A stretch of 62,947 bases of DNA, taken from assembly GCF_000422885.1 (NCBI RefSeq), contig NZ_AUGX01000037.1, forward strand, positions 1 to 62,947. Reading direction: 5' to 3'. Shown piece by piece: positions 16,966 to 35,884 of the stretch. The notes under the pieces were generated by a model. That model worked only from the letters and a program-made list of their open reading frames with translations. It did no database searches and was not told where the DNA came from. Both the position numbers and the translations under genes were made by a program. This DNA is from Ottowia thiooxydans DSM 14619. Its GTDB lineage: Bacteria; Pseudomonadota; Gammaproteobacteria; Burkholderiales; Burkholderiaceae_C. Each line of letters starts with the position of its first letter. The first letter of the stretch is position 1.

Positions 16966-17463
16966 TCAAGTACTCGTTGTTTCGTCTGCGCTGGCAGGTG
17001 TGCGACGCCGGAACATGCCATAGCCGTCCATCATCAGCACCTGGTCACCGTGCTGGTTGAACATTTCCCACAAGGTGCGCGTCAGGCCCACATCGGGGCG
17101 CGATTTCATAGGCCGCGCTTCGGTGATGCGCTGGTGCAGTGTCAGTGTGTCACCGGGATACACGGGTTTGAGCCATTTCACGCCCTCCAGGCCAGGCGAG
17201 CCGAGGCTGGATGATTCGTGCAGGAAGCCGCGCACCATCAGGCCCATGGCCATGGAGCAGGTGTGCCAGCCCGATGCGCTGAGCTTGCCGAACATCGATT
17301 TGGCGGCGGCTTCCTCGTTCAGGTGAAAGGGCTGCGGATCGTATTTGGTGGCAAATGCAATCACCTCGTCATGATCGACGGTGATACTGCCAATCTCCAG
17401 CGTTCTGCCAACGGGCAGGTCTTCCCAGAAATACTTGATGTTCGTTTGCGGATGAGTAGACAT
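16966..17463 (-). CDS. MaoC-like (R)-hydratase family protein
   Basis: A 165-residue hot-dog-fold protein of the MaoC dehydratase family, with YFWEDLPVGRTLEIGSITV at the N-terminus, then FATKYDPQPFHLNEEAA, which carries the catalytic Asp and His of the hydratase motif, and SGWHTCSMAMGLM. Family members hydrate enoyl-CoA or related double bonds. The start at 17463 (MSTHPQ) was preferred over an upstream ATG that would run back into the SDR gene. It follows the SDR by five bases and precedes pldA by four, so all three may share a transcript. Confidence 0.88.
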   Translation of the reverse strand: MSTHPQTNIKYFWEDLPVGRTLEIGSITVDHDEVIAFATKYDPQPFHLNEEAAAKSMFGKLSASGWHTCSMAMGLMVRGFLHESSSLGSPGLEGVKWLKPVYPGDTLTLHQRITEARPMKSRPDVGLTRTLWEMFNQHGDQVLMMDGYGMFRRRTPASADETTST

Positions 17464-17468
17464 GGTGT

Positions 17469-18215
17469 TCAACGGGCTCCTGAGACGTCTATGAGAGACA
17501 TGGTGGTGTAGCTTGCCGCATCCGACAATAACCACACAATGGATTGGGCGACTTCTTGCGCTGTTCCACCACGCTGCATGGGAATATGGTGTTTGAGTTC
17601 GGCCACACGATTGGGTTTGCCACCACTCGCGTGAATCTCGGTTTCGATCAAGCCAGGCCTGACAGCATTGACGCGAATGCCATCGCCTGCCGTTTCCTTG
17701 GCCAGGCCAATGGTAAAGGTGTCTATGGCCGCTTTACTGGCTGCGTAGTCCACATATTCGTTGGGTGATCCCAGGCGCGCCGCCGCGCTGGATACGTTGA
17801 CTATGCTTCCTCCAGAGCCGCCGTACCGCGTGCTCATGCGCCGCACTGCCTCACGCGCGCAGAGCATCGAGCCGATCACATTGATCTCAAACATGTGCCT
17901 CCACCGTGCCACGCTCTGTTCCGCGACGGGTTGGGAAACATCCACCACGCCCGCGTTATTGACCAGCCCGGTCAGGGGGCCCAGCTTGGCATCGATGTGC
18001 GCAAACATGTCCATCACCTGTGCTTCGTTGGCCACGTCCGCGCGAATCGCAATGGCATGGGCTCCGGCGGCGCGGATGGTGCGCACCACTTCATCGGCCG
18101 CGAGCGAGTTGGCCGTGTAGTTGACCGCCACCGTCCAGCCCTGTTGTGCGGCCAGCTTCGCCGTGGCAGCACCGATACCTCGGCTAGCGCCGGTGATCAG
18201 CAATACTTTGTCCAT
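17469..18215 (-). CDS. SDR-family oxidoreductase
   Basis: A 248-residue classical short-chain dehydrogenase/reductase: TGASRGIG at 8-15, NNAG near 91-94, a Ser in VNVSSAAA, and YAASK as the catalytic YxxxK. The NYTANSLAADEVV segment after the second strand, with no acidic residue at its end, suggests NADP(H) preference. It probably reduces a carbonyl or oxidises a hydroxyacyl product, and it is coupled to the MaoC-like hydratase. That pair resembles a beta-oxidation-like hydration and oxidation step. The substrate is unknown. Confidence 0.9.
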   Translation of the reverse strand: MDKVLLITGASRGIGAATAKLAAQQGWTVAVNYTANSLAADEVVRTIRAAGAHAIAIRADVANEAQVMDMFAHIDAKLGPLTGLVNNAGVVDVSQPVAEQSVARWRHMFEINVIGSMLCAREAVRRMSTRYGGSGGSIVNVSSAAARLGSPNEYVDYAASKAAIDTFTIGLAKETAGDGIRVNAVRPGLIETEIHASGGKPNRVAELKHHIPMQRGGTAQEVAQSIVWLLSDAASYTTMSLIDVSGAR

Positions 18216-18422
18216 GTCCTTGTTCCTGCAAGATCTGATGTGATTTTCTACAAGTCCATCGCACCTTCCATGGAGTCATTGGAACGCGCTTTGAAGGGCA
18301 ACTTGAAACAGGCGGTGACTGAGGCCTGAAGTGAGCAATACCCTGAGTGTCGCTGATCCCTGAAGTCCATCAGCCCGCATCGATGATTGGGAGAAAGGAG
18401 CGTGCTGGTGCTCAGCGACGCT

Positions 18423-33633: not shown

Positions 33634-33917
33634 TGCTCGCCTTTGCACTGTTGCGATAAATAGATTATCGAGACTTGGATATTAGATTTAATCGGTGGCA
33701 ACAAGGGGACAGTGCGAGAAACGATTGCTGCAATTTTTGTAAAACTCTCCCGCGCAAACACTTGCAATACGCGGTTCACGTGTGTCCTAGAATATTTTTG
33801 GATACGACCGTAAGGCTGAGAACCCCTTTTCTGCCTGTAGTTGTCCATTTGCCAGGCCCATGATGGCAGGTGGCGCCAGCATGCCCTTCAATCTATTCAA
33901 CCTTATCTAAGCACGCG

Positions 33918-35141
33918 ATGCAGACCGTTTTGATTACCGGGGCAGCTTCCGGAATTGGGCGTGACACCGCTCGCTTGTTCGCCAGCGCTGGCTGGCAATG
34001 CGTGCTGGTCGATCGCAATGTGCAGGCTTTGGAACAGGTGGTTCAAAGCCTGCCCGTGCACGGAACAGCTGCGCATGTGCCGCGTGTCATCGACTTGACC
34101 GACCGGCAGCAGATTGAAGCACTCGCGCAAGGCACGCCAGCCTTGGACGCCATCCTGAACAACGCAGGCATGACCGAGCCGTCCACCCTGCCTTTGATTG
34201 AGCAGACACCAGAGCAATTGCAACGCCTGCTGGCGCTGAATCTCGCGGCACCCGCCGCAGTGGTCGAAGCCTGCGCTGGTCTTCTTCGTCCAGGTGCTCG
34301 AATCGTGAACGTGTCGTCCGGCGCTGGCCTGGCAGCCATTCCCTGGCGAGGCGCCTATAGCCCCAGTAAAGCTGGCCTCATCGCCCAAACCCAAGCGCTT
34401 GCGCAAGCACGGCCCGATCTGTGCGTGACGGTGCTGGCCCCCGGATTCGTGCGCACCGAACTGGTAGAAAACCTGATTGCAACCGGCCGCCTGGTGCCTG
34501 AGGGCGCGGTGGCGAAGATCCCGCTGGGACGTATGGCAGCCCCCATGGAGATGGCGCAAGCCTTGTTCTTTCTGGCCAGCGACGGCGCCAAGCCTTTCAG
34601 CGGGCAAATCCTGGCGCTCAATGGAGGCTCCTCCATCTATGGCGGCAGCCGGCCGTTTGCACCCACCACCATTGACACGCTCCCATTGGATTTGCCAGTG
34701 AAGTTTGAAGTCCGTGGCGACCATGCCGAGCCGTGGAGAGTCCGGGTCGAGGAGCCCACGGGGCCTGTCCGTTACGAGGCTTGTCTGGACTCCTCCGCTC
34801 TCTACGCCCCTGCTGGCGGTTTGTTGCAAGCGGTGCACGCAGCGGCCACACATTTCGCCAACCGCCATGTTCAACAAGCCAGCCTCACCGTGCTGTTGCC
34901 CTCACGCTCAACTGTCCGTTGGCAGGATGCGGGCGATGCAGCGGCGGCCCGCATGCTGTTGTCTACCCTGGCCTGCGAATGGGGCGCTCTTGCGCTCCGC
35001 ATCAACGCCATCGAAGTGCCCGAAGGCCTGGACCCGCAGCAATTGCACCCCTTGCTCGTCTACGTTGGTGGCTCCGCCGCGCAGTACCTGACAGGGCAGA
35101 CTCTGGTTTGTCACGCCCCAAGCTCAGTGCCAACGCCGTGA
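33918..35141 (+). CDS. Tandem SDR: complete domain plus degenerate second one
   Basis: Residues 1-240 form a full classical SDR: TGAASGIG at 7-14, NNAG at 81-84, NVSSGAG, and Tyr147/Lys151 in YSPSK. Residues about 260-407 look like the second half of another SDR (RMLLSTLACEWGALALRINAIEVPEGL, then YVGGSAAQYLTGQTLVCH) but lack a Rossmann glycine motif and a YxxxK pair. The second part may be structural, like an intramolecular dimer half. The start at 33918 (MQTVLITG) was preferred over 33870. The last codons overlap the next start (GTGA). The 284-bp gap 33634-33917 upstream holds no supported gene. Confidence 0.85.
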   Translation: MQTVLITGAASGIGRDTARLFASAGWQCVLVDRNVQALEQVVQSLPVHGTAAHVPRVIDLTDRQQIEALAQGTPALDAILNNAGMTEPSTLPLIEQTPEQLQRLLALNLAAPAAVVEACAGLLRPGARIVNVSSGAGLAAIPWRGAYSPSKAGLIAQTQALAQARPDLCVTVLAPGFVRTELVENLIATGRLVPEGAVAKIPLGRMAAPMEMAQALFFLASDGAKPFSGQILALNGGSSIYGGSRPFAPTTIDTLPLDLPVKFEVRGDHAEPWRVRVEEPTGPVRYEACLDSSALYAPAGGLLQAVHAAATHFANRHVQQASLTVLLPSRSTVRWQDAGDAAAARMLLSTLACEWGALALRINAIEVPEGLDPQQLHPLLVYVGGSAAQYLTGQTLVCHAPSSVPTP

Positions 35142-35884
35142 CCAAGGCCCCTGACACCGCCGAGGCCGAGCGCGCTCGAATCAAAGACTTCTTTACCGAA
35201 GAGCGCGGCTACTGGCGCCCCTGGACTGAAACCGTGCTTCAGGCCAACCCCGGTTTTGTGGAGCAGTATGCGCACTACGCAGGCTATCCTGCGCGAACGG
35301 GGCCATTGACGCCGCGCATGGTCGAGCTGATCTATGTGGCACTGGACAGCTCCTCTTCACATCTGTTTGGCTCCGGCTTGCAAACCCATATGCGAAAAGC
35401 GTTGGAGCAGGGGGCGACGCAGGCGGATATCTTTGACGTGCTGCACCTGGTGGCCGTACAGGGCGCAGCCAGCGTCTGCCAGGCAGCCGAGATTTTGGCC
35501 GAGTTGGCAGGGCCCGATCAGGCTGAGGCGCTGGATGCAGACCTGCTGGCGCGCATTGACCAGCTAGGGCCGGAGCATGCGCTCACCTTGCATGCTGTGG
35601 CGCGGATGGATTCTGGTTATGCGCGTGTGCTGCTTGATTTCATCGAACACGGCCGGCCGGCTGGCGGTTTGAGTCCCGAGGAACGCACTCTGGTGCAACT
35701 GGCGCTGCATGCCTGCTTCACGGCTTTCAATCCCGAGGCTACCCGGAAGATAGTGGCCGTGGGACTCTCACAAGGTGTCTCTCAGGCTGAAATGCTGCAA
35801 GCCATTCAATTGGGCGCGCATTTGGCCGTACACGGAACGGCCTTGGGTGCCAACACGTTTCGCGAGCTCAGGGAGGCTCCCTAA
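35138..35884 (+). CDS. Carboxymuconolactone decarboxylase family protein
   Basis: The 248-residue protein probably starts at GTG 35138, overlapping the SDR stop; no ATG fits. It shows two AhpD-like helical modules: PLTPRMVELIYVALDSSSSHLFGSGLQTHMRKALEQGATQADIFDVLHLVAVQGA and LSPEERTLVQLALHACFTAFNPEATRKIVAVGLSQGVSQAEMLQAIQLGAHLAVHG. No CxxC redox pair is visible, so peroxidase activity is unlikely; a decarboxylase-type or unknown role is more plausible. Coupled translation ties it to the tandem SDR. It ends four bases into the convergent LysR gene. Confidence 0.85.
   Translation: MTKAPDTAEAERARIKDFFTEERGYWRPWTETVLQANPGFVEQYAHYAGYPARTGPLTPRMVELIYVALDSSSSHLFGSGLQTHMRKALEQGATQADIFDVLHLVAVQGAASVCQAAEILAELAGPDQAEALDADLLARIDQLGPEHALTLHAVARMDSGYARVLLDFIEHGRPAGGLSPEERTLVQLALHACFTAFNPEATRKIVAVGLSQGVSQAEMLQAIQLGAHLAVHGTALGANTFRELREAP

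Follow-up and report, generated by a model that had tools for sequence, protein, structure and literature searches.

A catabolic region of Ottowia thiooxydans probably assembled from two modules, one carrying a flavin reductase-FCD fusion beside a luciferase-like monooxygenase

Among the described systems closest to the locus reported here, a luciferase-like monooxygenase (LLM) performs the Baeyer-Villiger step on progesterone during bacterial degradation, according to the available part of the source (PMC12239570). The accessible text of another source (PMC5395668) hypothesizes, for SAR202, a scheme linking a short-chain dehydrogenase/reductase (SDR), a type II Baeyer-Villiger monooxygenase (BVMO) and a lactone. 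In C1, the reductase of p-hydroxyphenylacetate hydroxylase, substrate binding relieves autoinhibition, as the portion of PMC10816480 at hand reports. We analyzed 62,947 nucleotides from Ottowia thiooxydans DSM 14619 (contig NZ_AUGX01000037.1; this whole stretch is hereafter the window), in which the region 16966..36804 encodes an LLM (30581..31660, minus strand; PF00296) and a flavin reductase fused to an FCD domain (27225..28169, minus strand; PF01613 and PF07729). This reductase shares the C1-type plan, a reductase with a C-terminal domain of a ligand-sensing family; the domain is not of the MarR type.

A preliminary description, made from the sequence alone, had read about 19 kb (16966..35884) as one catabolic cluster, in a combination that it could not place among described pathways. 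Its family calls (MaoC, three SDRs, a LIV-type transporter set named for Leu/Ile/Val, FAH, DLH, VOC, Bug, LLM, SMP-30 and CMD) are borne out by Pfam and NCBIfam, as are the PF01613-PF07729 composition of the reductase and the catabolic character of the region. Our Pfam scan covered 20 open reading frames (ORFs) of the region, LivG and LivF being assigned by NCBIfam only; among those 20 there is no Rieske or extradiol-specific family, as the description had said, VOC being a fold family that also holds extradiol enzymes. Two of its three LysR genes lie within the stretch, at 18423 and 31774, and the third (35881-36804) lies just beyond its end at 35884. Within the literature and database searches made, the combination is indeed undescribed. 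The single cluster did not survive comparison with relatives. We slightly favor, as a whole, the explanation developed below, which comprises two modules, a route for each and gating by the FCD domain.

Arrangement of the region in relatives

Gene order leaves us with little doubt that the region represents two separately acquired catabolic modules, block A and block B, flanking an old resident DLH-family gene (26279..26968, plus strand; PF01738). Two genomes of the same genus, G897 (L110; a one-contig genome) and G896 (L113), share the order HemB-CorA-LysR3-DLH-SDR1-MaoC-Mla genes without either block. The LysR3 and DLH matches are 143 bases apart in L113 versus about 9.0 kb in the window, and DLH and SDR1 are 739 bases apart versus about 8.1 kb. 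The DLH-SDR1 gap of L110 holds a DSBA-family ORF that was not seen between those genes in the window. The residents other than DLH, which stands between LysR3 and SDR1 in L110 and L113, are a MaoC-type hydratase (16966..17463, minus strand; PF01575), the PRK06123-like SDR1 beside it in both genomes (17469..18215, minus strand; 80% identity in both), and LysR3 (35881..36804, minus strand) at the outer edge of block A. In a third genome, G889 (L111), SDR1, LysR3, CorA and HemB lie close together in a different layout, and nothing in the stretch matches DLH, MaoC or the genes of the two blocks; we did not use it as support.

Do the blocks travel together? The sister genome G890 (L112, which we take to be the same as L015, both contigs measuring 34,367) carries both side by side, with proteins 80-99% identical to those of the window. 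It and the window genome are the 2 of 29 genus genomes (several others are incomplete) with the reductase, and likewise the 2 of 29 with CnbZ, the block B deaminase. When 150 family genomes were searched with each protein, reductase and CnbZ were found together in the window genome only. Scanning named genomes with the reductase yielded 64 loci, each reaching at most 10 kb to either side, and CnbZ and LivK accompany it in one, L015 of the sister genome. The LIV-CnbZ genes in turn occur without block A in the 20-kb stretches of L013 and L079. Given the empty-site order in L110 and L113 and the separation of the blocks in relatives, we conclude that two modules are the likely units. An operon-like pathway spanning the whole 19 kb is rejected on the empty-site comparison and on co-occurrence: in L110 and L113 LysR3, DLH, SDR1 and MaoC adjoin one another and the other genes are missing, and DLH does not travel with the pathway genes. 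The preliminary description had named independent scattering of the genes in relatives as an outcome that would refute it, and for the set as a whole this is what the stretches compared show. Modules A and B need not serve a single pathway, and recognizing them as two keeps a false pathway out of annotation.

Module A and its fused reductase

The reductase-FCD fusion and the LLM module that recurs with it are the part of the region worth following. LLM (209.6 bits to PF00296) and reductase (153.8 bits to PF01613) form a two-component pair in one cluster and co-occur in relatives. The LLM ORF reaches 31738; relatives align from the methionine of an MDFG/MEFG motif. Our main co-occurrence counts rest on tblastn, which splits the 64 loci into 43 with a reductase at least 60% identical and 21 lower. 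Among the 43, LLM, VOC and LysR2 are each present in 38, SMP-30 in 36 (37 with a 27% match in L041 that this count leaves out) and CnbZ in 1. By the same criterion, L074 is the only one of the 21 lower-identity loci with an LLM.

The 43 loci fall into variant 1 (n = 20) and variant 2 (n = 23; LLM 49-52%). Variant 1 has the layout SMP-30, LysR2, LLM, Bug, often a second LLM, SDR2, VOC and reductase; SDR2 is present in all 20, VOC in 17, and LLM, LysR2 and SMP-30 in 16 each (this SMP-30 figure includes the L041 match). L024, L027, L036 and L041 start 1.4-1.9 kb before the reductase, with the LLM side off the stretch or at a contig edge; L020 has no SMP-30. Variant 2 shows LLM and LysR2 in 22, VOC and SMP-30 in 21, and some SDR in 20. 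Mean identity between the variants is 71% for the reductase and 73% for VOC, versus 49% for LLM, 41% for SMP-30 and 33% for LysR (SMP-30 matches at or below 35% and proteins of at most 80 residues were dropped, and the LLM copy nearer the window's was used). Thirteen variant-1 loci have two LLM matches; 12 of them hold two full copies, 80-96% identical, and in L019, which does have a full LLM ORF, one match gave a 12-residue ORF. Block A of the window holds a single LLM. On contig 3 its genome has another, 76% identical, together with a non-FCD reductase (L125 10975-12952) that is 45% identical to one from a Sulfitobacter plasmid; a shikimate-dehydrogenase-like gene and an SDR are nearby.

In block A of the window, a single-module VOC protein (28166..28534, minus strand) is co-conserved with the reductase, followed by SDR2 (28543..29361, minus strand; profile match) and a Bug/TctC receptor (29522..30574 as longest ORF, minus strand; PF03401) whose nearest solved chains are 2dvz, terephthalate-binding protein and Bug27. 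LysR2 (31774..32727, plus strand) adjoins LLM in relatives. The SMP-30/gluconolactonase-type protein (32758..33648, minus strand) carries an SGL domain (PF08450, 223.2 bits), matches 7plb at 127 bits and is a putative lactonase. SDR3 (33918..35141, plus strand) had been called two-headed; we detect one SDR domain and a degenerate second half, and the protein falls short of the two-domain family PRK06484 (211 bits, cut-off 713). Its tail of about 150 residues matches the C-terminal part of the SDR profile over 64 columns (columns 165-257 of 282, E 6e-9), shows by eye neither a Rossmann motif nor the catalytic Tyr/Lys, and is of similar length in six orthologues (49-54%). A CMD-family protein (35138..35884, plus strand; PF02627) has a probable GTG start overlapping the SDR3 stop.

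What might the C-terminal domain of the reductase do? It is FCD (FadR/PdhR-type) both by Pfam and by fold, and the fold matches effector domains solved with ligand, those of DhdR and FadR. Metal-dependent FCD regulators presumably use Asp/His/His/His ligands, at the positions we take these to occupy. In the reductases the ligands are lost, the four positions now being Thr/Ser/Ala/Met/Leu, Phe or Tyr, Arg281 and a non-His residue, the fourth judged by alignment with a GntR-type protein of the same genome. Arg281 is invariant in 38 of 38 aligned reductases; these sequences keep the domain with its invariant Arg and Asn positions, which is partly selection, as the query contained the domain and some rows end at the match end. 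The top 50 Foldseek matches were reductases, and the C1 chains 5zc2 and 5zyr, aligned over 322-332 columns at a root mean square deviation of 17-18 and TM 0.36-0.38, were uninformative. No reductase-FCD fusion appears by name among the 50 VIA matches listed, though in a capped list such an absence counts for little. Apart from 1usf and 3zod, reductases of a single domain matched over 24..255, each of these matches is confined to either the reductase or the FCD part. We found no description in the open-licence literature of a flavin reductase with an FCD domain, nor of the LLM/SMP-30/Variovorax combination.

We think it somewhat probable, from fold, residue conservation and the higher identity that reductase and VOC keep between the variants, that the FCD domain senses a ligand. 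It would bind the substrate or an acid product and switch NADH/flavin turnover on, so that reduced flavin is not wasted. If it does gate, a transcription-factor sensor domain has been fused to a flavin reductase at least twice, as a way to keep reduced flavin from being turned over to no purpose, and fusions of this type might serve as reductases that respond to a substrate. FCD-type reductases at about 44-56% identity (many of L057-L071, and L078) sit in another recurring neighborhood, with amidohydrolase-like and FAD-dehydrogenase-like proteins (named by eye) and further reductase copies. The fusion seems to be used in more than one pathway.

The neighbors of module A in relatives suggest where its product might go. 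A family scan of two loci found, after the reductase of L043 (variant 2), two acyl-CoA dehydrogenases, an enoyl-CoA hydratase, an ADP-forming-type acyl-CoA ligase, an SDR, a VOC protein and a SnoaL-like protein; one of the dehydrogenases is closest to PimC (331 bits, cut-off 624). In L019 (variant 1), an enoyl-CoA hydratase and a ligase adjoin SMP-30. On contig 9 of the window genome the hydratase (87%) and ligase (79%) are neighbors, and after them comes a PimC-like dehydrogenase that scores 208 bits, under the cut-off. Of 467 plasmid records with an LLM match, four were inspected, one from Sulfitobacter and three rhizobial. In the Sulfitobacter cluster, SMP-30, LysR and LLM share 52, 58 and 67% identity with their window counterparts and are joined by a reductase, a CoA transferase, two dehydrogenases (one for hydroxyacyl-CoA, one for acyl-CoA), 3-oxoadipyl-CoA thiolase, a hydratase and a ligase. 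Near nif genes in Rhizobium gallicum and Mesorhizobium amorphae lie P450, ferredoxin, an NTF2-like protein, an SDR of 527-533 residues (two SDR stretches in the one scanned, L116) and LLM; Sinorhizobium meliloti has the NTF2-like protein and LLM with insertion sequences nearby.

Because SDR, LLM with reductase, SMP-30 and CoA/beta-oxidation genes occur together, we infer a route from alcohol through ketone, lactone and acid to CoA thioester. SDR2 and/or SDR3 would oxidize an alcohol to a ketone; LLM, fed with FMNH2 by the reductase, would turn the ketone into a lactone or ester by a Baeyer-Villiger oxygen insertion; this product would be hydrolyzed to an acid by the SMP-30 protein; and the acid would become a CoA thioester and enter beta-oxidation by the enoyl-CoA hydratase/acyl-CoA ligase/dehydrogenase set, which lies inside the module in relatives and on another contig in the window genome. 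Module A thus probably oxidizes a cyclic or keto compound by means of its LLM. The same LLM lineage stands beside nif genes and P450 on rhizobial symbiosis plasmids, which hints at a plant-derived or symbiotic alicyclic substrate. Quite tentatively, we propose a widespread, undescribed proteobacterial system in which an LLM Baeyer-Villiger oxygenase, acting on such a terpenoid- or steroid-like substrate, is fed by a metal-free, FadR-type-gated reductase that arose independently of the MarR-gated C1. If true, this would give a first testable function to the LLM lineage found repeatedly in Variovorax and relatives, on the Sulfitobacter plasmid and on nif-bearing rhizobial plasmids.

Module B and the weighing of alternatives

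Block B begins with LysR1 (18423..19394, minus strand), divergent from a LIV operon on the plus strand that encodes the receptor LivK (19441..20757 as longest ORF, start by eye probably near 19540; PF13458), the permeases LivH (20828..21694) and LivM (21691..22635), and the ATPases LivG (22628..23392 with the start chosen by eye, longest ORF from 22538) and LivF (23389..24123). A CnbZ-family deaminase (24243..25001) and a FAH-family hydrolase (25042..25878; PF01557) follow on the same strand. A receptor clustering with true leucine-binding proteins would have told against the preliminary description, but this one is no close relative of true leucine receptors: it scores 98.1 bits against a cut-off of 477 for PRK15404, 83 bits with its best solved chain, which also bears the name of a probable Leu/Ile/Val-binding protein, and 54 bits with the leucine-binding protein 2lbp. 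The CnbZ assignment is firm (NF049982, 382.9 bits versus a cut-off of 220); an alignment covering 99% of the query gives 50% identity to CnbZ of plasmid pCNB. The hydrolase is nearest to L-2,4-diketo-3-deoxyrhamnonate hydrolase and falls below that family's cut-off (361 versus 500 bits).

The order LysR-LivKHMGF-CnbZ recurs without FAH in L013 (LivK 77%, CnbZ 62%) and L079 (70% and 60%), where a LysR1 homologue (35-44%) adjoins LivK; CnbZ adjoins FAH, with other transporters, in L014 (FAH 55%) and L092 (FAH 40%). Counting the window genome, CnbZ is found in 14 of 398 genomes of the phylum sample, 3 of 150 of the family and 1 of 369 of the class sample. In nine genomes of genus g494 it is surrounded by a peptide-type ABC transporter and efflux-type genes (named by eye), and these nine neighborhoods share no catabolic context with the window. 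No viral occurrence of CnbZ was confirmed among 27 candidate stretches.

Contig 9 carries a second LIV operon, 53-58% identical for the four subunits compared. The operon lies next to a 2-hydroxymuconic-semialdehyde dehydrogenase that clears its cut-off (888 versus 693 bits) and to two Rid proteins, acetaldehyde dehydrogenase and 4-hydroxy-2-oxovalerate aldolase; an amidohydrolase and a FAH-family protein resembling a decarboxylase, this one under its cut-off (201 versus 351 bits), also stand there. On these assignments the neighborhood looks like a 2-aminomuconate-type lower meta pathway. Because a paralogous LIV operon stands beside such genes, an amino-aromatic or enamine substrate is reasonable for module B, and the amino-aromatic idea of the preliminary description may hold for block B alone. 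Substrate would be imported through the LIV-type transporter, CnbZ would hydrolyze a 2-aminomuconate-like enamine, and FAH would then act on the resulting 2-oxo acid. Judged from its genes, module B probably imports and deaminates a compound different from that of module A. No aminophenol ring-cleavage genes scored in the region; none are listed in the pCNB stretch either, and such neighbors thus do not strictly define CnbZ.

We also considered CnbZ as a tandem Rid (YjgF/RidA) protein and do not claim it. The profile matches come in order, with P 7e-4 for the C half and 0.012 for the N half; among seven decoy profiles one, LLM, reached P 0.0023, better than the N half and almost level with the C half, and the halves do not match each other. 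Against solved structures the single sequence found nothing, and a profile found three chains at E 0.46-2.1, which we take as chance. In the open-licence literature we found no description of CnbZ together with 2-aminomuconate deaminase. The window genome has 19 Rid-family (PF01042) matches.

Several findings weigh against the account given above of the two modules. The best match of the LLM is 8cbb, a luciferase-alpha-like chain, at 153.5 bits versus 42.7 bits over about 98 columns for 3,6-diketocamphane monooxygenase; we put the chance that this LLM performs Baeyer-Villiger chemistry at about even. The window itself lacks the enoyl-CoA hydratase and CoA ligase, the variant-2 locus L048 has the reductase without other module genes, and block B has no upstream ring-cleaving enzyme. 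Neither the Sulfitobacter reductase nor that beside the window genome's second LLM has a Pfam FCD match, and hence the domain is not required for the function of this LLM lineage. That related LLMs are served by such reductases, and that the metal site is lost, would suit an FCD domain that is a dimerization module or relic without sensing. Against this stand its occurrence in all 38 reductases aligned, where Arg and Asn positions are invariant (partly selection), and its likeness to the ligand-bound domains of DhdR and FadR, and we regard a domain without sensing as rather unlikely. Could the LLM instead open a nitrogen heterocycle, or hydroxylate, without inserting oxygen into a ketone? LLM oxygenases of this kind include those acting on trigonelline and pyridine; the reactions of LLM enzymes are many, and the window's is not close to the diketocamphane enzymes. 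However, no amidohydrolase, deaminase or aldehyde dehydrogenase turned up among the scanned or annotated module genes of L043, L019 and L114, and a route from ketone to lactone suits the lactonase, SDR and CoA genes; we hold this reading to be unlikely.

Perhaps the blocks work together after all? In one integrated pathway, the LIV transporter would import an amino-aromatic or N-heterocycle, LLM would open the ring, CnbZ would deaminate, and FAH and DLH would finish, much as first described. The blocks are adjacent in the window and L015, the CnbZ assignment is strong, and the paralogous LIV operon accompanies a 2-aminomuconate-type pathway. However, CnbZ is absent from the stretch compared in 63 of the 64 reductase loci, DLH and MaoC are resident genes, and the CoA genes of module A relatives fit other chemistry, which makes this pathway improbable. 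A narrower proposal is that the blocks are coupled in this small group only, for example by recruitment of transporter and deaminase to a substrate whose skeleton module A degrades. They do stay adjacent in two congeneric genomes, with proteins differing by 1-20%; with only two closely related genomes, shared descent explains the pairing, and we doubt the coupling. We therefore retain two modules with separate routes.

Elsewhere in the window, 42023-56466 (41.9-56.5 kb) holds, among other genes, a sensor kinase/response regulator pair, an MFS transporter, the alpha and beta subunits of respiratory nitrate reductase and a peptidyl-prolyl isomerase, all absent between the flanking genes in the same-genus stretches L110-L113; judged from its gene content, this is a nitrate-respiration insertion particular to the window genome among those seen. 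A phospholipase A1 family ORF (PF02253; 15678-17021) adjoins MaoC and has no match listed in L110 or L113; the L111 and L112 stretches end before the phospholipase side. The window genome measures 7.05 Mb versus about 1.3-4.5 Mb for the 28 other listed genus genomes (several incomplete). An ORF at 6342-7142 of L124 resembles, by eye, a class D beta-lactamase-type protein.

Comparison with known systems

The pdc cluster of Caenibius tardaugens resembles module A in having an LLM in a catabolic cluster; there, as far as the available part of PMC12239570 goes, the LLM has two regulators and a type I BVMO as companions, and which reductase serves it is uncertain. Module A has the FCD-fused reductase, SMP-30, VOC and Bug, and we liken the two by description only. 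The diketocamphane monooxygenases follow a logic of alcohol to ketone to lactone, the same as we propose for module A. Encoded on the camphor plasmid, they are of the two-component LLM type in the accessible portions of PMC4631483 and PMC6352141, and differ in their weak sequence similarity to the window LLM (42.7 bits).

For module B, the closest described counterpart is CnbZ of pCNB, the 2-amino-5-chloromuconate deaminase of Comamonas CNB-1; the window protein is 50% identical to it and passes the equivalog cut-off. The contexts differ, an operon with a LIV transporter and FAH in the window and a place between arsenic genes and a TctC-type receptor gene in pCNB.

The rhizobial symbiosis-plasmid cluster of P450, ferredoxin, NTF2, SDR and LLM, which we take to be that known under the names CYP127A and y4v, has an LLM 61-63% identical to the window's and an NTF2-like protein 55-61% identical to the SnoaL-like protein of L043. 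It differs in its P450 and two-domain SDR, found in two of three records, those near nif genes, and in that the features listed, from an incomplete gene table, include neither SMP-30 nor a flavin reductase. The fused reductase itself compares with C1 (AbHpaC) of Acinetobacter baumannii (PDB 5zc2, 5zyr), described in the available part of PMC10816480 as a reductase with a C-terminal regulatory domain. C1 carries a MarR domain for this purpose, whereas the window reductase carries an FCD domain, for which we infer regulation.

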